From contig DATNEW010000041.1 in the NCBI GenBank assembly GCA_035606695.1, positions 124,001 through 188,000 on the forward strand: a stretch of 64,000 bases of DNA, written 5' to 3'. A model generated the notes under the pieces. It did not search any database and had not been told where the DNA came from. It was given only the letters and a program-made list of their open reading frames with translations. The position numbers and the translations under genes were made by a program. The DNA comes from Gemmatimonadaceae bacterium (GTDB taxonomy: Bacteria; Gemmatimonadota; Gemmatimonadetes; Gemmatimonadales; Gemmatimonadaceae). This document shows, piece after piece, positions 12,715 to 42,389 of the stretch (within the stretch, counting starts at the first letter, position 1; the number at the start of each line of letters is the position of its first letter).

Positions 12715-14442
12715 CTAATTCGGCGGAATGGCGGCTTTCGCGAGATCGAGCTCGCGCCGCGCCTGAGGCACGAGCGCGCTGCCCCCGTAGGTGAGAATCA
12801 AATGCTCGAGGTGCGCGGCGGCGCCGGACGCGTCGCCGGCGCGGCGCAGCGTTCGCGCCCACTCGAGCTCGGCCTGCGGTGCCTCCGGAGAGTCGTTCTC
12901 GGTGTCGAGAATGCGCTTCCACAGCGCGATGGCGTCAGCGTCGTTGCCGCGCCGCGACTGAATCTGCGCGGCGCTGAGAAGCAGGAGCGAGCGAACGACG
13001 GGCGTTTTGTCGGCGGCGTCCACGAACTGGGCGGCCGCCGCGGTGCTATCGCTTCGCGCGAGCGCGAGGAACGCCTTGCCGATCGCCGGGGCCGTGTCCG
13101 CCTTGATGCGCGCGATGAGCGCAAGCGCCATCGCAAGCTCGGGTGAGCTCTCGGTGCCGCCGCGCAGCAGCACACGGGCCGTTTTCAGATTCCCTTCATA
13201 CAACGCGAGCCAACCCGCCGCGTCGCTCGAGTCGCCCTCGGCTCCCGTCGCCGCCAAGGCGGCGCGCGCGCGATTCATGTCGCCGGTGCGCACCCAGCCC
13301 CAGGCAATCGTGCGAATCAGCGAGTTGTGCGCGCCGGGCGAGATGAAGCGATCATACGCCGCCACCATGCGCTCCGCTTCCGCCGGCCGGCCGAGCGACG
13401 ACAGCGCGCGGGCATAGAGCGGCACGTAGGATTTGGCGATGAGCGCCGAGTCACCGTTGGCATCCGCCAGCGGTGCGAGCCGGAGCGCGGCCGCCGCGTC
13501 GCCGCCATTGAGCGCGGCCGTACCGGCGCGCAACGCAACGTCCGGCGTGTGCTTCCAGCGCAATGCCGCCTCGAGCGCCTCGCGGGCGAGCGTCCAGCGC
13601 TCCTCCGATTCGGCGCGCTTGGCGAACTCCGACCACGCATCGGCCGCGGCGCTGTCGGGCGGAATGGACTTGAGCGCATTCCAGCCGTCGCTCGCCGATC
13701 CCCAACTGGTCTCGAGATCCGCCAGCGCGCGTCGCGAGGAGACTTCGATCGGCAACGAAAGAAAGATCTCCCGCACCTGCGGTCGCGACGACATCGGCGT
13801 CGGCGCGAGCGCGTATGCCGCGGCCTGCTCGAGGTAGTCCGCCTTGATGAGCGCCTGGCGCCATGCCTGCGCCGATTCGACCCACTGCCCCTGCGCGGCG
13901 CGCGCTTGAGCAACCTCTAATTGCAGATCTTTAGTCGATCCAAGCGTCATGTTCGCGCGCGCGAGCACGCTGTCGGCGGCCGCGGAGCGGTTGCGCTGCA
14001 GCAGCAAGTCGGCGTACTCGCGGTACGGCGACGGACTGTCCGGCACGTCGTGCACCCACTTGTCGAACGCCGCGCGCAAGGCGGCCTCGCGGCCGAGCGA
14101 TTGCAGCGTGCGCAGCTGTACGGTGCGATACGTCTCTTCGTGCGGGTTGGACGCGATCAACGTATCGAGCGTGGCGACGAGCGAGTCGGACTGGCCGATC
14201 TCGGCGAGCACTCGTTCCAGACCGAGGAGCGCGTTGACGCTGGCGGGCGTATGCAGCGCGACGCGAAAGAGCGGCGCCGCCTCCTTGTACTTGCCGGCGG
14301 CCTCGAGATCGAGGGCCTTGTAGAAGGCCATCGTGTCGGCGGGCGCTTGCGCGGCGATGGTCGGTGGGCGGCGGGCGATGGGCGCAATGCCGATGGCGAC
14401 CATGAGAAGCGAGCGCCGAACGCGCGCGGCGTTCACGCCCAT
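12715..14442 (-). CDS. exported tetratricopeptide-repeat protein
   Basis: 575 residues. An N-terminal signal peptide (RVRR, then SLLMVAIGIAPIA, cleavage near IAAQ) precedes many alanine-rich helix pairs typical of TPR repeats (EAAGKYKEAAPLFRVAL near the N-terminus, QSRRGNDADAIALWKRIL and LRRAGDASGAAAHLEHLIL near the C-terminus). TPR proteins scaffold protein complexes; partners are probably the DUF4175/DUF4159 membrane proteins encoded just upstream. The ATG lies inside the G-rich arm of a heptamer repeat element, and the C-rich arm encodes signal-peptide residues 21-32 (PIARRPPTIAAQ). The start is therefore uncertain: Met14 is an alternative, but it would leave no basic n-region. Confidence 0.8.
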   Translation of the reverse strand: MGVNAARVRRSLLMVAIGIAPIARRPPTIAAQAPADTMAFYKALDLEAAGKYKEAAPLFRVALHTPASVNALLGLERVLAEIGQSDSLVATLDTLIASNPHEETYRTVQLRTLQSLGREAALRAAFDKWVHDVPDSPSPYREYADLLLQRNRSAAADSVLARANMTLGSTKDLQLEVAQARAAQGQWVESAQAWRQALIKADYLEQAAAYALAPTPMSSRPQVREIFLSLPIEVSSRRALADLETSWGSASDGWNALKSIPPDSAAADAWSEFAKRAESEERWTLAREALEAALRWKHTPDVALRAGTAALNGGDAAAALRLAPLADANGDSALIAKSYVPLYARALSSLGRPAEAERMVAAYDRFISPGAHNSLIRTIAWGWVRTGDMNRARAALAATGAEGDSSDAAGWLALYEGNLKTARVLLRGGTESSPELAMALALIARIKADTAPAIGKAFLALARSDSTAAAAQFVDAADKTPVVRSLLLLSAAQIQSRRGNDADAIALWKRILDTENDSPEAPQAELEWARTLRRAGDASGAAAHLEHLILTYGGSALVPQARRELDLAKAAIPPN

Positions 14443-14466
14443 CGCCCAGCGCCCATCGCCCAGCGC
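14347..14466 (-). repeat. heptamer (GCGNTGG)n hairpin element, copy A
   Basis: Read on the minus strand, the DUF4175 stop codon TAG is followed at once by GCGCTGG GCGATGG and a second GCGCTGG GCGATGG pair (14434-14466). About 50 bases later comes a complementary C-rich arm (14347-14383) built of CCCATCG/CCCACCG-like heptamers. The C-rich arm lies within the TPR gene and is translated as part of its signal peptide. Confidence 0.85.
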
Positions 14467-17400
14467 CTACGGCGTCCCAGCATTGATCTTCTTAAAGTAC
14501 TCTAATATCGCGCGCCGCTCGTCCGCGCTCAGACCGCGCAGCTCGTCCCACGTGGGCTCGCGGAACTTCGTGGCGGCGCGGCCGCTGGCGTTCGTGTTGT
14601 CGGGCTTGAGCTCATTGCCGCCCTTGGCGGACGTCGCCTCGCGCTTCTTGTCGTCGTCGCGTTCATCCTTCTGCAGCGACCGGCCGGCATCGAGCAAGCG
14701 GCGGAACAACTGCTGTTGTCTCGCGATCGTCGTCGCGTCGAGGCGGCCGCCCTCGAGCGCTTCGGCGAGCTGCTTTGCTTCCTTCGCGAGCTGCGCGGCG
14801 CGATCGCCGCCGACGCCTTCACCCAGTTCATCGAGTTGCTGCGAGACCTGACGCTGTTCGCGGGCGAGCGCCCGCGCGGTCGCTTGCATCTGCGACGACA
14901 TCGGCTGGCCCATGCCGGGCATGAGTCCCTGGGCCTGCGCGTTGATCGAGCCCTGCTTCTTCGCCATCTCCTGCAATTGCTGCATCATCTCGGCGAAGCC
15001 GGTCGCGGAGCTCGAGGTGTTGGCCTTTTCGCGATCGCGCGCAAGCGACGCCGCGGCGCGATTCAACGCGTCGGCCGCGTCGCTCATCGCGCTCGCGGCT
15101 TGCTGGCCACTGCGCGAGTCGGCGGTGGATTGCATCGCCTCGGACACCTTCTGTTGCGCTTCGCTCACCGAGCGTTGCGAGCGACCGGATAGCAACGACG
15201 TTTTCTGGCCTTCCTGCTGAAGCTTCTGCGCCGAGTTGTCGAGTCCTTGCTTTACCGCGCTCTGTTCGCCGCGCAGCTCTTCGGGCTTCGCCTGGCCGGA
15301 GCGCGCCTTCTGCTCGAGCTGCTGCTCTTGCCGTGCCATCTGAAGCATTTCCTGCACGGCTTGATCGAGCGCGTTAGTGAGCTCGGACTTCCATTCGTTG
15401 ACTTGTGACTCGCGCGCATCCTTCATGGCTTGCGATGCGCGGTCCATTTGGGAGGCAGCGTCGCGTGCGTTTTGTTCGACGCCTTGCTGGCCTTGCTGGC
15501 CTTGCTGGCCTTGCTGGCTTTGCTGTCCCTTCGCGTTCTGTTGTTGGCCGTTCTGTTGTTGACCGCTTTGTTGCTGGCCGTTCTGTTGTTGGCCGTTCTG
15601 TTGTTGACCGTTTTGCTGCTGCCCTGATTGTTGCTGTCCGCTCTGCGGCTTGGCATTCTGGGGCTTGCCGGTCTGCTGCTGATTGCCGGCTGCTTGCTGT
15701 TGCTTCGGATCCTTCCCGCTCGAGCGCAGCGCTTCCTCGGCGGCATCGGCGTGCTTCTGTGCTTCCTTCGCGCCCGAGGCCCCCGCATCGGCCTTGTCCT
15801 TCTCCAGGCGATCCTGAAGCTTCTTCACTTCGTCGGAGAAGCGTTGCGACCGATCCGCGAGATTCTTCGCATCCGACTTCTGCTCGTCGCTCGGCTTCGC
15901 CGATGCCGAGTCGGCGAGCTTGCGATCGTGGTCGGCGATGTCCTTCGCTTCGTCCTTGAGCGTCTGCATCGACCCTTCGAGCGCGGCACGCTTGAGCATC
16001 TCCGCGCTCTTCTCGAGCTGCTCGCGAAGCTTCTCCTGCATCGCCTGCAGGTCCTTGAGCGATTGCTGCGATTGGTCGCGCGAAAGCTGTTGCGTCGCGT
16101 TGTCGAGTTTCTGCATCTGCGCCAACAATTCCGGCGACAATGCGTCGCGGAGGAGCGCCTGCGCTTCCTGGAGCTGGCGCGCCAGGCTGCTGTCGAGAGC
16201 GCCCGCCTGCTTGAGCTGATCCTCGAGCGCTTTGGCGGTTTGCTGCAGCTGCTTCACCTGATCGGCCAGCGCGCGCTGATCCTTCGCCACGGCTTTCGCC
16301 TTCTCGGCGGCGTCGTAGCTCATGTTGCCTTTCTGATCGCCGGCACCGCTCGCATTGCTCGGCATGTCGTTCGGGCTGCGCTGCGCGCGATCGCGCGCGG
16401 CATCGCTCGTCCGCTGCTCGAGCGACTTCTCCGCGGCGGCGGCCGAACGCGCCTGACTGACGGCCGAATCCATCGCGTCGCGCGCGATGGCGCGGCGCTC
16501 TTCCATCGTGGGAATCTTGAGCAGCAGCTCGCGGCTCTCGCCGCGCTGCGCCCAGGGCGAGTTGTCGACGGCGACGATCTTGACGTGCAAGGCGTCGCCT
16601 GGCTTGAGGGCGCGCGGCGCGAGATCGAGGATTGCCGTGCCATCCCACACGTTCGTCAGCGCATCGGCGATGCGCTGAGTGATCGCCGTCTGCTGGCCAC
16701 CGGTGCTTCCCTGCTTCCAGCTCATGATTTCCACGCGCGCGAGGCCGTGATCGTCCGAGGCGGTCGCGCGCAACGGAATGCGATCGTCGCCCGCGACGAG
16801 CGTGTCGGTCGCCGGAGAAACCAGCTCGACTTTCGGCGCCGAATCCGGCACGACCTCGAGGTCGATCGGTTGCGGCACGTCGGCGATCGGGCCCGACGCG
16901 CCGGTCGCGAGCCACGCATACTTCCCGCTCTTCGTCGGTTGCATGCGCCCGGCGAACGAATGGTCGTTCACGCGCAGCGCGACCGTGTCGCTACCGTTGC
17001 CCAGTCGAACGTCGCGCAGCGCGGTCGATGCGCGACCGCTGATGTCGATGACGGTTCCCTGTGGTACGCGCACCGCATCGCCGACGGCAAGCGCCTCGGC
17101 GGCGCGACCGAGATACGCCGGATAGACTGCGCGCATCTGCACCGCGCCAACGAACGGGCGGTCCGTAACCCGTACGACCGCGGTGTCGCTTCCCGACCGT
17201 CCGTCACTCGCGACGATCGTCAGGTCGCCGCGCAGTGGACCAACCTCGGCCACGCCAAGTCCGTTGCGATCGACCGCCACGGACTGCGTCACCCACGCTT
17301 CGCCGGGAATGCGCTGCGTCAGCGTCACGCTGCCGCGATGCGGCGCCGCGATTTGGAGTCGAACCGACTCACCACGCAACACGGCGGGCGGCAAGTTCTG

Positions 17401-17964
17401 GAACGCGATGCGCGGGAGCAGCGTCCCATCCCACGCGCTCACTGGACGCATGATCGCCAGCACGCCGTCGTTGAAATTCGGGACGACGAACGCCAGCGCC
17501 GCCACCGCGACCGTCGCCGCTCCCGACGCGCGCACGAAGCCGCGCCGCACGCCACGCTGCTCACCCGGCGCCAGGCGTGATCGCACCGGCGCGAGCTGTT
17601 CGCCCAGCCGCGTGGCCGCACGCCGTCCCAACGTGCCGCTGTCCGCCACTTCGAGCGCGCCGCGCAGCGCGCCGGCGCGCAACGACTGCTCGCGCTCGAT
17701 CGCGGCGGCGACGTTCTGCCGCGTCGTACGGCGCTGGAGCTGCCGCGCCGTCCACACGATCACCGCCGCATCGGCGGCGATGAGCAGCACCCACACCAGG
17801 AACGGCACCAAGCGCGGCAACGACATCCAGCGCGCGCCGCCGAGCACCGACGCGCCGAGCGCGAGTACGAGCGCCGTCGCCCCGACGGCCAGCGCCAGGC
17901 CGACGAGGACGTGCATGCGCCGCAGCCGCGCGCGTTCAGAATCTACTAATTCAAGAATACTCAT
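14467..17964 (-). CDS. DUF4175-family membrane protein with coiled coils and Gln-rich tract
   Basis: 1165 residues. After MSILELVDSERARLRR come two membrane helices (about 20-45 and 55-80) and a third near 155-175. A large extracytoplasmic region with beta-rich segments follows (PAYLGRAAEAL, VELVSPATDTLVAGDD), then a long alanine/glutamine-rich coiled coil (about 520-1100) interrupted by a Gln/Gly/Asn tract. The layout matches DUF4175 proteins found beside DUF4159 and MoxR/BatA-type clusters. Molecular role unproven, probably cell-envelope associated. Start ATG 17964 overlaps the DUF4159 stop by 4 bases (ATGA), so the two are coupled. An upstream in-frame extension is rejected because it overlaps the DUF4159 gene. 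Confidence 0.85.
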   Translation of the reverse strand: MSILELVDSERARLRRMHVLVGLALAVGATALVLALGASVLGGARWMSLPRLVPFLVWVLLIAADAAVIVWTARQLQRRTTRQNVAAAIEREQSLRAGALRGALEVADSGTLGRRAATRLGEQLAPVRSRLAPGEQRGVRRGFVRASGAATVAVAALAFVVPNFNDGVLAIMRPVSAWDGTLLPRIAFQNLPPAVLRGESVRLQIAAPHRGSVTLTQRIPGEAWVTQSVAVDRNGLGVAEVGPLRGDLTIVASDGRSGSDTAVVRVTDRPFVGAVQMRAVYPAYLGRAAEALAVGDAVRVPQGTVIDISGRASTALRDVRLGNGSDTVALRVNDHSFAGRMQPTKSGKYAWLATGASGPIADVPQPIDLEVVPDSAPKVELVSPATDTLVAGDDRIPLRATASDDHGLARVEIMSWKQGSTGGQQTAITQRIADALTNVWDGTAILDLAPRALKPGDALHVKIVAVDNSPWAQRGESRELLLKIPTMEERRAIARDAMDSAVSQARSAAAAEKSLEQRTSDAARDRAQRSPNDMPSNASGAGDQKGNMSYDAAEKAKAVAKDQRALADQVKQLQQTAKALEDQLKQAGALDSSLARQLQEAQALLRDALSPELLAQMQKLDNATQQLSRDQSQQSLKDLQAMQEKLREQLEKSAEMLKRAALEGSMQTLKDEAKDIADHDRKLADSASAKPSDEQKSDAKNLADRSQRFSDEVKKLQDRLEKDKADAGASGAKEAQKHADAAEEALRSSGKDPKQQQAAGNQQQTGKPQNAKPQSGQQQSGQQQNGQQQNGQQQNGQQQSGQQQNGQQQNAKGQQSQQGQQGQQGQQGVEQNARDAASQMDRASQAMKDARESQVNEWKSELTNALDQAVQEMLQMARQEQQLEQKARSGQAKPEELRGEQSAVKQGLDNSAQKLQQEGQKTSLLSGRSQRSVSEAQQKVSEAMQSTADSRSGQQAASAMSDAADALNRAAASLARDREKANTSSSATGFAEMMQQLQEMAKKQGSINAQAQGLMPGMGQPMSSQMQATARALAREQRQVSQQLDELGEGVGGDRAAQLAKEAKQLAEALEGGRLDATTIARQQQLFRRLLDAGRSLQKDERDDDKKREATSAKGGNELKPDNTNASGRAATKFREPTWDELRGLSADERRAILEYFKKINAGTP
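15480..15660 (-). repeat. low-complexity Gln/Gly/Asn-coding repeat inside the DUF4175 gene
   Basis: Imperfect tandem units of 15-21 bases (variants of CAACAGAACGGC on the minus strand, and a 9-bp CAAGGCCAG unit at one end) encode QQQNGQQQSG- and QGQQGQQGQ-type sequence. The reading frame stays open. It is likely a flexible linker prone to length change. Confidence 0.8.
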
Positions 17965-18662
17965 GGCGTCGGCCGGCTGGTCACCGCGTACACGAACAGG
18001 TTCACGCCCATCCGCAGCGCCGCTTCGTGCAGCGCCGGTGGATCGTGATAGACCTCGGGATCCTCCCACCCGTTGCCGAGGTCGCTCGAGAAGCTGTAGT
18101 ACACCGCGAGACGGTCGCCCAGGAAAATCCCGAACCCGCGGGCCGGCAGGCCGTCATGCTCGTGGATCTTCGGAATCCCCTTCGGGAAGTCGTACACGAT
18201 GTGATAAATCGGATGCGACAGCGGCACGTCGACCAGTGGACGATCGGGAAACACGCGCTTGATCTCGCGCCGAAAGCTCGAGTCGATGCCGTAGTTGTCG
18301 TCCACGTGCAGAAAACCGCCGCGCTGGAGATACTCGCGCAGGCGCACGACTTCCGCATCGCTGAACTTGATGTTGCCGTGACCCGTCGCGTGAATGAACG
18401 GGTAATCCCACAGCTTGTCGTCCATCAACGTGACGCGCGCTTCGGTCTTGTCCACCTGCAGCGACGTGCGCTGACGAATGGCGGCGAGCAGGTTGGGAAG
18501 GCTCGACGGATTGGCGTACCAATCGCCGCCGCCGTCGTACTGCAGCCGCGCGATGGTGAGCACGGGCGGCAGCCGGACCGCCGGGCGCGCGCCGACGAGC
18601 GGCAGCAACGCCAGCGCCAACACCGCACGCACACGCGCACCCATGCGACTCAGGGCCATCAT
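17961..18662 (-). CDS. DUF4159 domain protein, exported
   Basis: 233 residues. A basic n-region and hydrophobic segment (VRAVLALALLPLVGARP) form a signal peptide. The domain shows QYDGGGDWYANPSSLPNLL, then FIHATGHGNIKFSD, LREYLQRGGFLHVDDNYG and YHIVYDFPKGIPKIHEHDG, which are DUF4159 hallmarks. This fold is GATase/ThuA-like; its biochemical role is unknown. The start is ATG at 18662 or the adjacent ATG at 18659, both overlapping the rsmI stop. The next gene (DUF4175) overlaps by ATGA. The pair is common in envelope-related clusters. Confidence 0.85.
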   Translation of the reverse strand: MMALSRMGARVRAVLALALLPLVGARPAVRLPPVLTIARLQYDGGGDWYANPSSLPNLLAAIRQRTSLQVDKTEARVTLMDDKLWDYPFIHATGHGNIKFSDAEVVRLREYLQRGGFLHVDDNYGIDSSFRREIKRVFPDRPLVDVPLSHPIYHIVYDFPKGIPKIHEHDGLPARGFGIFLGDRLAVYYSFSSDLGNGWEDPEVYHDPPALHEAALRMGVNLFVYAVTSRPTP

Positions 18663-20578: not shown

Positions 20579-20694
20579 CGCGATGGGCGATGGGGGATGG
20601 GCGATGGGCGTGGAATTCAAAGGGCGACGGATTTTTCTCCGTCGCCCTTTGCCGTTCCGCCCAACGCCCAACGCCCAACGCCCATCGTCCATCG
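20579..20694 (-). repeat. heptamer (GCGNTGG)n hairpin element, copy B, with inner hairpin
   Basis: On the minus strand the trxA stop is followed directly by CGATGGACGATGGGCGTTGG and further GCGTTGG units (20658-20694). The complementary C-rich arm lies at 20579-20613. Between them sits a separate 13-bp perfect hairpin (AAAGGGCGACGGA with TCCGTCGCCCTTT, 20618-20650). The whole could fold as one long stem with an inner stem. Confidence 0.88.
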
Positions 20695-21021
20695 CTACGC
20701 GGAATGCTGCTGCAACTTCGCTTCGATCGAGGCGCGCGGCACCGCGCCGATGATCTGATCCACGACCTTGCCGCCCTTGAAGAACAGCATCGTCGGGATG
20801 GAGCGCACGTTGAAGCGCGAACCGGTCTTGATGTTGGCGTCGACGTCGAGCTTCGTGATCTTCACTTTGCCTTCGTAGTCGGTCGCCAGCTGATCGAGGA
20901 TCGGCGCGACCATACGGCACGGGCCACACCACGTCGCCCAGAAGTCGACGATGGTGAGTCCGTCGGCCTTCTCGACTTCCTGCTCGAAGTTCGCGTCCGT
21001 TACAGCCATGATGTTCGACAT
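20695..21021 (-). CDS. trxA: thioredoxin
   Basis: Cytoplasmic dithiol-disulfide oxidoreductase, 108 residues. The active site is FWATWCGPCRMVAP with Cys32 and Cys35; the cis-proline is in VRSIPTMLFFKGG. The start ATG 21021 is set by GGGGAG seven bases upstream; an extension to 21156 would translate a tandem repeat and is rejected. The upstream leader carries a 10-bp tandem repeat. A heptamer hairpin begins right after the stop. Confidence 0.97.
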   Translation of the reverse strand: MSNIMAVTDANFEQEVEKADGLTIVDFWATWCGPCRMVAPILDQLATDYEGKVKITKLDVDANIKTGSRFNVRSIPTMLFFKGGKVVDQIIGAVPRASIEAKLQQHSA

Positions 21022-26630: not shown

Positions 26631-26713
26631 CATTGCGCTGGGCGCTGGGCGTTGAGCGATGGGCGTTGCACGGCGCTCCGAACCACGCCCAACGCCCAGC
26701 GCCCAGCGCAATG
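26631..26713 (+). repeat. heptamer (GCGNTGG)n hairpin element, copy C, perfect 24-bp inverted repeat
   Basis: The 24 bases at 26631-26654 (beginning CATTGCGCTGG) are an exact reverse complement of 26690-26713, with a 35-nt loop that contains two further GCGNTGG-type units. It lies between tRNA-Gln and prs. As RNA the stem would be extremely stable and could separate or protect the tRNA transcript. Confidence 0.95.
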
Positions 26714-27900: not shown

Positions 27901-28560
27901 ATGGCAACTGTTTCCCTGAGCGCTCAGGTGCGCACCGAGACCGGCACGGGCGTCGCACGCAAGCTCCGCGTCGCCGGCCAGGTTCCCGCCGTCATCTACG
28001 GCCACGGCCGCGCGCCGCAGTCCCTCGCCATCAACACCCGCGAGATCGAAAAGCTCTTGAGCACCGTGTCGGCCGGCAGCACCGTGATCGAGCTCGGCGT
28101 CGACGGCCGCACGGCCCGCACGCTGATCCGCGAGATCCAGCGCCACCCGACCAAGCGCAGCATCGTCCACGTCGACTTCCAGGAGCTCGTGGCCGGTGAG
28201 AAGATCACCGTCAGCATTCCGCTCCGCTTCACCGGCACCGCCGACGGCGTGCGCAACTTGGGCGGCATTCTCGAGGAAGTCATGCACCAGGTGCACCTGC
28301 GCCTGGATCCGGCGAGCATCCCCGACCACGTGGACGTAGACGTCACGCCGCTGACGATCGGTCACAGCATCCACATTCGCGAGTTGAAGCTGCCCGAAGG
28401 CGTCACGGTGCTCGACGATCCGGGCGCGACGGTCTGCGTCTGCACCGCGCCGAAGGCGGAAGTCGCCGCCGTCGCGGCGGAAGGCGTCGAGGGCGCCGCC
28501 GTGCCCGAGCCGGAGCTCATTCGCAAGCCCAAGGCTGAGGGCGAGGAAGAAGCGAAGTAG
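27901..28560 (+). CDS. rplY: 50S ribosomal protein L25 (general stress protein Ctc form)
   Basis: Binds 5S rRNA. 219 residues, the long CTC form with an N-terminal L25 domain (GVARKLRVAGQVPAVIYGHG) and a C-terminal TL5-like beta domain (VHVDFQELVAGEKI, then HIRELKLPEGVTVLDDP). It ends in an acidic/alanine tail. It forms the classical prs-rplY-pth-ychF series with its neighbours. Confidence 0.95.
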   Translation: MATVSLSAQVRTETGTGVARKLRVAGQVPAVIYGHGRAPQSLAINTREIEKLLSTVSAGSTVIELGVDGRTARTLIREIQRHPTKRSIVHVDFQELVAGEKITVSIPLRFTGTADGVRNLGGILEEVMHQVHLRLDPASIPDHVDVDVTPLTIGHSIHIRELKLPEGVTVLDDPGATVCVCTAPKAEVAAVAAEGVEGAAVPEPELIRKPKAEGEEEAK

Positions 28561-28569
28561 CGCTCGGTG

Positions 28570-28660
28570 CCGGGCGCTGGGCGATGATCGCCACGCGATT
28601 TCGAGCGCTTCTGTCCGCGCTCTTCACTCGCCCAACGCCCAGCGCCGAACGCCCATCGCC
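28570..28660 (+). repeat. heptamer (GCGNTGG)n hairpin element, copy D
   Basis: Starting ten bases after the rplY stop, the G-rich arm GCCGGGCGCTGGGCGATG (28570-28587) is followed about 40 bases later by the C-rich arm CGCCCAACGCCCAGCG and further CCGAACG/CCCATCG units (28629-28660). The arms share an 11-base perfect complement (GGCGCTGGGCG region). The C-rich arm touches the pth start codon, so it occupies the place of a Shine-Dalgarno motif. Confidence 0.82.
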
Positions 28661-38913: not shown

Positions 38914-39270
38914 ATGACATCGACTCCAACGACCAACTCGCTGGCACTCGCGCAGCGCGCGGCTCAGATCGCGATCGACAACAAGGCGCAGGACGTGGTG
39001 CTGCTCGATCTGCGCGGCGTCACCGACATGACGGACTTCTTCATCATAGCCAGCGGCACGTCGGACACGGCGACCCGATCCATTGGTGAGCACGTGTTGG
39101 AGGAGATGAAGAAGGAAGGGTCGCCCGCGCATCACATCGAAGGGTTGGAAAAGGGCCGGTGGGTGCTGCTCGACTTCGTTGATTTCGTGGTGCACGTGTT
39201 CCATCCGACCTTGCGCAACTTCTATCAGCTCGAGCGGCTGTGGGCCGACGCGGAACAGATTCCGATCTAG
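38914..39270 (+). CDS. rsfS: ribosome silencing factor RsfS (Iojap family)
   Basis: Binds L14 and blocks subunit joining when nutrients are scarce. 118 residues; AAQIAIDNKAQDVVLLDLRG, TDFFIIASGTSDT-type signature (MTDFFIIASGTSD), GWVLLDF-like GRWVLLDFVDFVVHVF and FYQLERLW are conserved. The stop TAG is followed without a gap by heptamer element E. Confidence 0.95.
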   Translation: MTSTPTTNSLALAQRAAQIAIDNKAQDVVLLDLRGVTDMTDFFIIASGTSDTATRSIGEHVLEEMKKEGSPAHHIEGLEKGRWVLLDFVDFVVHVFHPTLRNFYQLERLWADAEQIPI

Positions 39271-42200
39271 GCGTTGGGCGTTGGGCGCAGGGCGCTGGGC
39301 GGATCGTCTCGGCCAGCGTCTGGCGAGCAGTGCTCATCGGCATACTGGTTTTGCCCATCGCCCAGCGCCCATCGGCCATCGCGGCCCAGAATTACTTCGG
39401 CCAGAATCAAGTCCAGTACGACACGTTTCATTGGCAGATTCTCGAGACCGAACACTTTCAGATTTACTACTATCCGGATGAGGCGCGCGCAGTCAACGAC
39501 GCGGCGCGTCTCGCCGAGCGCGCGTACGCGCGCCTGTCGCGCGTGCTGGACCATCAGTTTCGCGAGAAGAAACCGATCATGCTCTTCTCGTCGCGCACCG
39601 ATTTCGGGCAGAACAACGTCACCGGCGATCTCGGCGAGGCCACGAGTGGAGTGACCGAGGCCATGCGCCATCGCATGCTCCTCAACTTCACCGGCGACTA
39701 CAAGAGCTTCGAGCACGTGCTCACGCACGAGATGGTGCACGCATTCCAATACGACATCTTCGCGCACGGCAAGGCGGGCAACGGGCTGCAGGCGCTCGCG
39801 CAGTACATGCCGCCGCTCTGGTTCGCCGAGGGGATGGCGGAGTATCTGTCGCTCGGTCCGAACAGCACGGTGACGACGTCGTGGATGAGGGACGCGGCGC
39901 TCAACGGCCGCATTCCGACGATCAAGGAGCTGACCGACGATCCGGACAAGTACTTCCCGTATCGCTACGGCCACTCGCTCTGGACGTTCATCGGCCAGAA
40001 ATGGGGCGACGAGGTCATCGGCCAGATCATGAGCTCCGTGCCGGCGGTCGGAGTCGAGCGCGCGTTCCGGCGCGAGCTCGGCATCACGCTCGAGGATCTT
40101 GGCGAAGAATGGCGCGAAGACGTGCAGACACGCTTGTTGCCCGCAGTGGCGACGCTCGACCGGCCGCGCAAGTTCGCGCAGCCGCTGTTGAACAAGGAGC
40201 GGAGCGGCGGCGACGTGTTTCTGGCGCCGACGCTCTCGAGCGATGGACGCACGATCGCGTTCCTGTCGAACGGCAGCGTGCGGCGCGGCGAAATATTCAT
40301 CGATCTGTGGCTGGCCGATGGCGAGAACGGCCAGCGCCAGGGCCGGCTGGTCAAGAGCACGTTCAGTCGCGACTTCGAGGAGCTGCGGCTGCTCTACGCG
40401 CAGAGCGCGTTTTCGCCGGACGGCCGTTACCTCGCCTTCACGGCGCAACAGCGCGGCCGCGACGTGCTGTACATCTTCGACGTCGCGTCGCGGAAGGAAG
40501 TGCGCCGCCTCGACAAGCTGGGGCTGGAGTCGGCGACGAGCCCGAGCTGGTCGCCGGACGGAAAGCAGCTCGTCTTCAGCGGCAATCACGGCGGAATTAC
40601 AGATCTTTATATAGTAAATACTAATGGCACGGGGCTGCGCAAGCTCACCGACGACCGATTCGGCGAGCTGCAGCCCCAGTGGTCGCCGGACGGCCGCACG
40701 ATCGCGTTCGCGACGGACCGCGACAGCGCCAACCTCGCCCTGCTCCGCTTCAAGCCCTGGCGCATCGCGCTGCTCGACCTTGCCTCCGGAATCGTCAGCG
40801 TGCTCCCCGGGCAGAGCGGCCTCAATCTCAATCCGCAGTGGGCGCCCGACGGCAAGTCGATCGCGTACGTGTCCGACCGATCCGGCTCGCCGAACATCTT
40901 CCTGTACGACCTCCCGACGCACGAGCACTTCCAGCTCACGAACGTCGTCGGCGCCGTCTCGGCGCTGACCGAGTACAGTCCGGCGATCACGTGGGCGAGG
41001 CAGGCCGACCGTCTCGCCTTCACGTACTTCGATGACGGCGAATACACCATCTGGAGCGTCAACAACCCGCGCGCGCTGAAGCGCCTGCCGTACCAGGATC
41101 GGCCGGCGACCGTCGTGCAGACCGGAAGCGACAGCGCGTCCAAGGCCGTGTCGATCGTCGCGCTGCTCGATTCGTTCAGCCTCGGTCTTCCCGACACGAC
41201 CAGGTTCCGCACCGCGCCGTATCACGTGCGCTTCCAACCCGACTTCTCGGCGCGGCCGAGTATCGCGTATTCACCGGATGCGTTCGGCCGGACGATCTTC
41301 GGCGGCACAACGCTCGTGATGAGCGACATGCTCGGCAACAACCATCTGGCGATCGCCGGGGAGATCAACGGGCGCATGAGCGAGGCGCGCGCGTTCCTTG
41401 GCTACACGAACATCGCGCATCGCTGGCAATTCTCCACCGGCTTGTCGCAGACTCCCTACTACTTCCTGTCGTCCGACTCGCTCTCGAGCACCGGTGCGAC
41501 CGGCCGCTCGCTCGAGAATCAGCAGATCACGACGTACGTCGCGCGCCAGGCGTTCGGCGTCACCGCGTACCCGATCGACCGATTCACCCGCATCGAGTTC
41601 GGCGCGGGATTCAACAACATCGATCGCAGCCGGTTGTTCGTCACGCGAAACCTCGTCGGTGGAACGGCGGCGACGGGCTATTCCGTCGACAGCACGCATC
41701 GCGATCCCTCGCTCAACTACATCGACGGGCAGATCGCGCTCGTCTCCGACAACACGCTCTTCGGCTACACGGGACCAGTGATGGGCCGACGCTTTCGCGT
41801 GCAGCTCACGCCGGTCGCGGGCACGTATCAATGGAAGGAATACCTCGTCGACTATCGCCGATACGATCCCGTCATCTTCAACTATCTGACGATCGCGTCG
41901 CGCCTCTACACCGACCTGTCGATCGGGCGAGACGAGGAAGCGTTTCCGAAGTACATCGCGCGGCCGGATTTCGTGCGCGGATACGATCGCAACAGCACCT
42001 TCTATCTCGCGTGCCCGGTGATCGGCGCCAATCCCACCAATTGCAGCGCGGTCCAATTGCTTGGCAGCCGAGTCGCCGTGGCGAACGTCGAGGCGCGCTT
42101 TCCCCTCGTTCGGCGCCTCGAGCTCGGCTTTCTGCCGTTCGACTTACCGCCCGTGGATGGCCTGTTTTTCTACGACGCGGGCCTCGCCTGGTCGGCTGGC

Positions 42201-42389
42201 CAGACCGTCTACGGCTCTCGGCCCGAGGGCTATGACGTGAACACGCAGCGGTACCCGCTCCGCAGCTACGGCGCGGGGATTCGGGTCAACCTCTTCAATT
42301 ACGCCATCCTGCGCTGGGATTACGCCGTCCCCGTCGATCAGCAGGGGCACAAGGGCGTCTGGACCTGGTCGCTCTGGCCGTCGTTCTGA
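39240..42389 (+). CDS. exported peptidase MA-like / TolB propeller / beta-barrel protein
   Basis: Up to 1049 residues. After a signal peptide (AVLIGILVLPIAQRPSAIAAQ, residues 30-50) comes a gluzincin-like peptidase domain with HEMVH (His163-His167) and WFAEGMAEYL (Glu197/Glu201) for zinc. Residues about 310-640 form a PD40 beta-propeller (WSPDGKQLVFSG, WSPDGRTIAFATD, WAPDGKSIAYVSD). The last 400 residues look like an outer-membrane barrel (LRSYGAGIRVNLF, terminal aromatic LWPSF). The start is uncertain: GTG 39240 overlaps rsfS by 31 bases, GTG 39330 would leave almost no n-region. Both arms of heptamer element E are inside the reading frame from 39240. Role unknown; possibly surface proteolysis. 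Confidence 0.82.
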   Translation: MGRRGTDSDLGVGRWAQGAGRIVSASVWRAVLIGILVLPIAQRPSAIAAQNYFGQNQVQYDTFHWQILETEHFQIYYYPDEARAVNDAARLAERAYARLSRVLDHQFREKKPIMLFSSRTDFGQNNVTGDLGEATSGVTEAMRHRMLLNFTGDYKSFEHVLTHEMVHAFQYDIFAHGKAGNGLQALAQYMPPLWFAEGMAEYLSLGPNSTVTTSWMRDAALNGRIPTIKELTDDPDKYFPYRYGHSLWTFIGQKWGDEVIGQIMSSVPAVGVERAFRRELGITLEDLGEEWREDVQTRLLPAVATLDRPRKFAQPLLNKERSGGDVFLAPTLSSDGRTIAFLSNGSVRRGEIFIDLWLADGENGQRQGRLVKSTFSRDFEELRLLYAQSAFSPDGRYLAFTAQQRGRDVLYIFDVASRKEVRRLDKLGLESATSPSWSPDGKQLVFSGNHGGITDLYIVNTNGTGLRKLTDDRFGELQPQWSPDGRTIAFATDRDSANLALLRFKPWRIALLDLASGIVSVLPGQSGLNLNPQWAPDGKSIAYVSDRSGSPNIFLYDLPTHEHFQLTNVVGAVSALTEYSPAITWARQADRLAFTYFDDGEYTIWSVNNPRALKRLPYQDRPATVVQTGSDSASKAVSIVALLDSFSLGLPDTTRFRTAPYHVRFQPDFSARPSIAYSPDAFGRTIFGGTTLVMSDMLGNNHLAIAGEINGRMSEARAFLGYTNIAHRWQFSTGLSQTPYYFLSSDSLSSTGATGRSLENQQITTYVARQAFGVTAYPIDRFTRIEFGAGFNNIDRSRLFVTRNLVGGTAATGYSVDSTHRDPSLNYIDGQIALVSDNTLFGYTGPVMGRRFRVQLTPVAGTYQWKEYLVDYRRYDPVIFNYLTIASRLYTDLSIGRDEEAFPKYIARPDFVRGYDRNSTFYLACPVIGANPTNCSAVQLLGSRVAVANVEARFPLVRRLELGFLPFDLPPVDGLFFYDAGLAWSAGQTVYGSRPEGYDVNTQRYPLRSYGAGIRVNLFNYAILRWDYAVPVDQQGHKGVWTWSLWPSF
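39271..39387 (+). repeat. heptamer (GCGNTGG)n hairpin element, copy E
   Basis: GCGTTGG GCGTTGG GCGCAGG GCGCTGG (39271-39298) starts at the base after the rsfS stop. After about 50 bases the C-rich arm CCCATCG CCCAGCG and further CCCATCG/GCCATCG units (39354-39381) follows. The C-rich arm encodes residues 39-50 of the peptidase/propeller protein. Confidence 0.88.

Follow-up and report, generated by a model that had tools for sequence, protein, structure and literature searches.

The closest described relatives of the repeats reported here are the quadruplex-forming heptamer repeats of the GGGNATC type from Xanthomonas and Nostoc (Rehm et al. 2015, PMC4692102). Common to both are a heptamer with a GGG tract, a preference for four units, genome-wide dispersal and a mostly intergenic location, as well as convergent inverted pairs in which the G-rich strand follows or overlaps stop codons and the C-rich strand lies just upstream of starts. 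In both, arrays are rare within open reading frames (ORFs) and rarer still with the G-rich sequence on the coding strand (PMC4692102). The units themselves differ, being GGGNATC or GGGGA(C/T)T in the Rehm-type repeats and GGGCGNT here, and the GTGGAGA unit of a sister species (G005) lacks a GGG run. Quadruplex formation in vitro (CD, K+ preference) characterizes the Rehm-type repeats; the present repeats, which have the sequence pattern G3N4G3N4G3N4G3, are putative quadruplex formers. The text of PMC4692102 mentions neither a repeat-encoded peptide, nor its location in signal peptides, nor a change of unit between sister species.

Translated repeats have been described in other bacteria. The Rickettsia palindromic elements (RPE; Ogata et al. 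2000), going by their descriptions in PMC10969869 and PMC2759123, are in-frame palindromic repeats of approximately 150 bp. Like the present repeats, they are dispersed inverted-repeat DNA found in frame in unrelated genes, where they yield a recurrent peptide that is missing in orthologues. On the same descriptions, the approximately 150-bp RPE unit contrasts with the 7-bp tandem array, the frame-independent peptide and, in the signal-peptide cases, the unrelated spacers found here. The enterobacterial RU-1, RU-2 and RU-3 (ERIC-type) repeats are also translated in genes (Delihas 2007, PMC2759123), but these are 127-168 bp long, are not tandem heptamers, and are translated in one or a few cases, whereas the heptapeptide described here is recurrent (PMC2759123). 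In MITE and REP-RAYT elements, which a transposase moves with target-site duplication, terminal repeats surround a conserved core; a 47-nt terminator core lies between the arms in a subset of the present pairs, but not in the signal-peptide cases. Our literature search found no heptamer repeats in Gemmatimonadota. New relative to these precedents are the tandem heptamers, the frame-independent peptide, its occurrence in many genes, and the change of unit between species.

Results

Two unrelated secreted proteins share a repeat-coded signal-peptide stretch

The window analyzed here is a stretch of 64,000 nucleotides of the source genome, designated G000 (G000:C41:124001-188000). It holds an ORF for a secreted peptidase, whose translation contains VLIGILVLPIAQRPSAIAAQNYFGQ, and an ORF for a secreted TPR protein, whose translation reads MGVNAARVRRSLLMVAIGIAPIARRPPTIAAQAPAD. 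The two share a 12-residue signal-peptide stretch, PIAQRPSAIAAQ in the peptidase and PIARRPPTIAAQ in the TPR protein. The initial annotation attributed this stretch to a heptamer element, and both copies are indeed read from the C-rich arm (sense strand) of inverted heptamer pairs. The features of the two sites are as follows.

39240-42389, + strand: BSP-like peptidase/PD40 propeller/barrel protein, secreted (longest ORF, from GTG 39240)
39270-39301, + strand: G-rich arm of the peptidase site, GGCGTTGGGCGTTGGGCGCAGGGCGCTGGGCG, with four GGG tracts
39302-39352, + strand: 51-nt spacer coding the n-region and h-region (GSSAS..VWRAVLIGILVL), with two candidate start codons
39353-39382, + strand: C-rich arm of the peptidase site
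12715-14442, - strand: secreted TPR protein
14436-14467, - strand: G-rich arm of the TPR site, as read along the gene
14385-14435, - strand: 51-nt spacer coding the n-region and h-region (VNAARVRRSLLMVAIGIA)
14353-14384, - strand: C-rich arm of the TPR site, as read along the gene

PIAQRPSAIAAQ is coded by 39354-39389 (+ strand), corresponding to residues 39-50 counted from GTG 39240, and consists of the end of the C-rich arm followed by the gene's own GCGGCCCAG; PIARRPPTIAAQ is coded by 14347-14382 (- strand). Searched as a degenerate DNA pattern, the shared motif matched exactly twice in the whole 5.9 Mb genome, in the peptidase and TPR genes, and the reversed control had no match. At the peptidase site, the first G of the G-rich arm is also the last base of the TAG codon that ends the RsfS gene upstream (38914-39270). 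At the TPR site, the gene upstream (14467-18069) likewise ends in TAG, whose G is the first base of the G-rich arm, and the TPR start, ATG 14442, sits within the arm itself.

The mature proteins are unrelated, as had been proposed, one being a BSP-like peptidase with a PD40 propeller and a putative barrel and the other a TPR protein. In both genes, homology to relatives starts directly after the repeat peptide. The closest named relative with the peptidase in a scan of the genome collection was a soil MAG of Gemmatimonas sp. (68% identity), which was the sole close one.

Three start candidates were found for the peptidase gene, GTG 39240, GTG 39330 and TTG 39348, all of them upstream of the C-rich arm. 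GTG 39240 lies inside rsfS and would give a signal peptide of 50 residues with the G-rich arm translated too. The other two lie within the 51-nt spacer, and GTG 39330, the gene caller's pick, would give a signal peptide whose n-region carries no charge. No start codon is present between the C-rich arm and the conserved block of this gene, and the C-arm peptide is predicted to be translated whichever candidate is used.

The repeat encodes one heptapeptide in every frame

Translation of the C-rich arm gave one cyclic heptapeptide, P-x-A-(Q/H/R)-R-P-x, in all three frames alike, because the 7-nt unit, seven not being a multiple of three, runs through every codon phase. The units CCCATCG, CCCAGCG, CCCAACG and CCCACCG specify PIAHRPS, PSAQRPA, PNAQRPT and PTAHRPP, respectively, and mixed arrays specify mixed peptides, such as PIAQRPS. 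Stop codons were absent from the C-arm translations of these four unit variants in the three frames. Capture of the C-rich arm in the same frame in the two genes, which the initial annotation had put forward, therefore carries no weight, and the codon phases at the arm ends are mixed, being 9/7/4 among the 20 arms within ORFs. A convergent pair reads G-rich arm then C-rich arm on either strand, and thus the orientation needs no explanation either. What is left over is the register relative to the AAQ end: the codon phase agrees, a one-in-three coincidence, and so does the distance to the cleavage site, for which tolerance by itself is only a loose explanation.

The description of the peptide as small hydrophobic residues was incorrect. 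Every heptad has Arg plus Gln or His, with mean Kyte-Doolittle values of -0.8 to -1.9, and the heptapeptide, being polar, therefore fills the c-region behind the hydrophobic core and makes no core itself. Nor does the repeat supply an AxA-like cleavage end, since the terminal A-Q belongs to the gene itself and is kept in nearly all orthologues. In orthologues from 27-29 further genomes, the mature protein nearly always follows an xAQ-type end, and of the 426 signal-peptide-like N-termini sampled, 127 had such an end in a rough screen for [AVSGTIL]xAQ. Since the repeat-coded peptide recurs in numerous other proteins of G000, it is best seen as a by-product of the repeat and not as a dedicated targeting signal.

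The heptamer arrays are dispersed through the genome and mostly intergenic

The repeat, (GGGCGNT)n, is dispersed, and its arms often form inverted pairs. With up to 3 mismatches, CGCCCANCGCCCANCGCCCANCG had 474 matches in the genome, compared to 2 for the reversed pattern. Arms scoring at least 18 were surveyed in 1.51 Mb (approximately 26%) of the 5.9 Mb genome, taken in stretches and with genes predicted by a caller of our own making. The presence of perfect arms was the reason for choosing half of these stretches; the unselected subset comprised 0.97 Mb. The survey yielded 89 arms, and the reversed-unit control none. The modal arm was 31 nt, GCG(NTGGGCG)x4, with exactly four GGG tracts in 53 of the 89 arms and the pattern G3N4G3N4G3N4G3 matched by 62. 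Neighbouring arms were ordered G-rich then C-rich in all 20 pairs, and neither the opposite order nor a same-sense pair was found within 250 nt in the 1.51 Mb.

Although the DNA is 89% coding, 27 of the 34 arms in the unselected 0.97 Mb were outside ORFs and 7 inside (p ~ 1e-20), a scarcity consistent with purging everywhere except at permissive sites. In the sample, 34 G-sense and 14 C-sense arms were within 30 nt of a stop, and 20 C-sense and 5 G-sense arms were within 30 nt upstream of a start. Eight pairs had one layout, in which the G-rich arm lies at the upstream stop or shortly after it, the spacer contains the start codon and the C-rich arm falls in the first codons. Where an arm abutted a stop, the G-rich arm began exactly at the G of TAG (TA/G) in 21 of 26 cases, for example at 14467, 20695 and 39270 of the window; the remaining abutting stops were TGA (5), with no TAA, and TAG makes up 374 of 1250 stops overall (p ~ 1e-7).

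Intergenic members of the family in the window are listed below.

20580-20695: two arms around a terminator-like hairpin
26635-26709: pair with a 17-nt spacer
28560-28660: pair with a degenerate left arm; 1 nt separates its end from the next start

The pair at 26635-26709 stands behind an apparent tRNA-Gln gene (identified by eye) and, unlike other pairs, is extended by an outer stem, GCATTGCGC/GCGCAATGC. Between their heptamer arms, a subset of pairs (20580-20695 of the window, C15:282458, C1:167545, C26:303030, C27:5170, C32:28405 and C9:31733) have in common a core of approximately 47 nt, TGAAAACAAAAGGGCGACGG..CCGTCGCCCTTT, which resembles a terminator hairpin. These pairs look like a copied compound element. 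The signal-peptide elements have neither a shared spacer nor this core, and arms of the family are often single.

Other ORFs also contain the repeat

Within ORFs of the 1.51 Mb sample, 20 C-sense arms (in 19 ORFs) were found versus 3 G-sense arms (p = 0.0005). Four of the 19 ORFs were signal-peptide-like, namely the peptidase, the TPR protein, P0006 and an ORF with MALYALIAASANAFAQRPAPTAQR at C4:5810; in the rest, the arms formed N-terminal extensions or linkers. P0006, on the same contig as the window, has the third such signal peptide, TPVVHRPTPTAHLPAQ, which derives from the same kind of pair and is missing in orthologues. With the heptapeptide present in approximately 19 sampled ORFs, mostly cytoplasmic, the view that it is a signal-peptide phenomenon as such found no support.

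In isoleucyl-tRNA synthetase, the repeat peptide APIARRPSPIARR occupies an internal loop (L186:5616-5646, C41:29616). The loop is surface-variable, and where this protein has APIARRPSPI relatives lack the insertion or have the loop filled otherwise. Empty sites were thus found in relatives for the peptidase, TPR, P0006 and isoleucyl-tRNA synthetase genes.

Orthologous sites are empty or hold another heptamer

In a multiple alignment of orthologous DNA, CGCCCAN arrays were absent at all five window sites in G002, G005, G004, G001, G003, G014 and G024. The CGCCCAN-coded peptide was likewise absent from the orthologues of the peptidase and TPR genes in approximately 30 related genomes, which have other signal peptides instead; the captures in the two genes were therefore independent, as the initial annotation had supposed.

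The sister species G005 lacks the CGCCCAN family (7 matches versus 11 in its own control). Its CTCCACT arrays had 260 matches compared to 4 in the control, and G000 has none at all. In the G005 TPR gene, a GTGGAGA arm follows the stop and a CTCCACT arm lies just before AQAPAD, giving LLHSPLSTLHALQAQ. The same signal-peptide site of the TPR gene is thus filled by two unrelated species-specific heptamers, which may be a coincidence at a permissive site or the rewriting of a persistent one; one of the five window sites has a different heptamer in the sister species. Private heptamer families were noted in several genomes, namely CTCCACT in G005 (L220, L226, L227, L229), CTCNCCT in G003, and GTTGTTG/GTAGAGG in G024.

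Discussion

A species-specific dispersed (GGGCGNT)n repeat landed independently in two secreted-protein genes, and we consider it very probable that it is tolerated, rather than selected, at permissive sites. In both genes the repeat, usually with four units per arm and often as a convergent pair, lies downstream of the preceding gene's stop codon and ahead of the mature protein, such that the G-rich arm takes the intergenic side and the C-rich arm takes the stretch from the hydrophobic core to the signal-peptidase site. Because the pair always reads G-rich then C-rich, and the C-rich arm is stop-free with one cyclic heptapeptide in every frame, any in-frame capture would give the same residues. 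Permissive coding places would be the c-regions of signal peptides, N-terminal extensions and domain linkers. The strand bias within ORFs is probably due to the quadruplex-prone RNA that a G-rich sense strand would put in the message. The altered signal peptides presumably still work and are presumably kept by tolerance, not by selection.

The inverted pair might instead have been domesticated as something useful at the start region, either a translation-tuning RNA hairpin or quadruplex or a working signal-peptide module. The eight pairs of identical layout are in keeping with such a role, as is the pair of a different heptamer at the orthologous TPR site in G005. The RNA folds are also strong, at -72.1 kcal/mol (z = -4.7) for 39265-39395 of the peptidase element and -75.8 kcal/mol (z = -2.4) for the TPR element, and effects on translation are possible. 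We nonetheless regard domestication as unlikely. The orthologues of 27-29 of approximately 30 other species manage without any repeat, arms also occur in intergenic gaps and in ORFs of no common function, and the variable bases of paired arms match no better than chance (24/66, p = 0.13), giving no sign of selection for perfect pairing. Covariation between the arms at this base, a mark expected of template switching or of selection for a perfect hairpin, was not significant.

The position-by-position match over 12 residues could suggest that recombination copied the signal peptide of one gene into the other, or that of a common donor into both, but the match stops at the repeat. The two genes show no relationship in their spacers, hydrophobic cores or mature parts, and each has flanks typical of its own orthologous group, which makes such copying extremely improbable. 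Hardly more credible is that the arms are untranslated, with the true starts downstream of the repeat, an outcome that the initial annotation had named as contrary to its proposal. The starts are predicted ones, and the peptidase gene has only GTG and TTG candidates near the element; on paper, however, all plausible starts are upstream of the C-rich arm in both genes. Orthologues moreover start their signal peptide upstream and have conserved sequence directly after AAQ, and a later TPR start would cost a signal peptide present in all orthologues.

Independent landing of a tolerated repeat makes these genes a clean case of dispersed DNA repeats that supply translated sequence to many proteins, with residues that are always the same. 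It also warns against inferring a common export route whenever unrelated proteins encoded by one genome have a short identical stretch in their signal peptides or linkers. With one heptamer replaced by another at the TPR signal-peptide site between sister species, the origin and turnover of bacterial heptamer arrays become testable by comparative genomics. More speculatively, and in our estimation with the odds against it, each species of the lineage may have its own heptamer (CGCCCAN in G000, CTCCACT in G005, CTCNCCT in G003), and some process may rewrite arrays at persistent sites, precisely to the codon. The start of the G-rich arm at the G of TAG in 21 of 26 abutting cases and the TPR signal peptide, made from the local heptamer in two species, would point this way. 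If so, heptamer arrays would be an actively renewed genome-wide system for which signal peptides are one recurrent landing site.

A homocysteine methyltransferase linker was considered as a shared site of the heptamers of both species; alignment identified two different neighbouring genes, and the case was not counted. In the G000 metH linker (L172:3790-3925), a different palindrome, TGTCATCCCGAGCG..GGATGACA, is translated in frame where G005 has a heptamer pair. In G005, both arms are in frame in further ORFs, for example an ABC-transporter-like ORF (L227:6355-6425), where the two arms of a pair encode ERRVESGNGVSTLHSPLSTLPSR.
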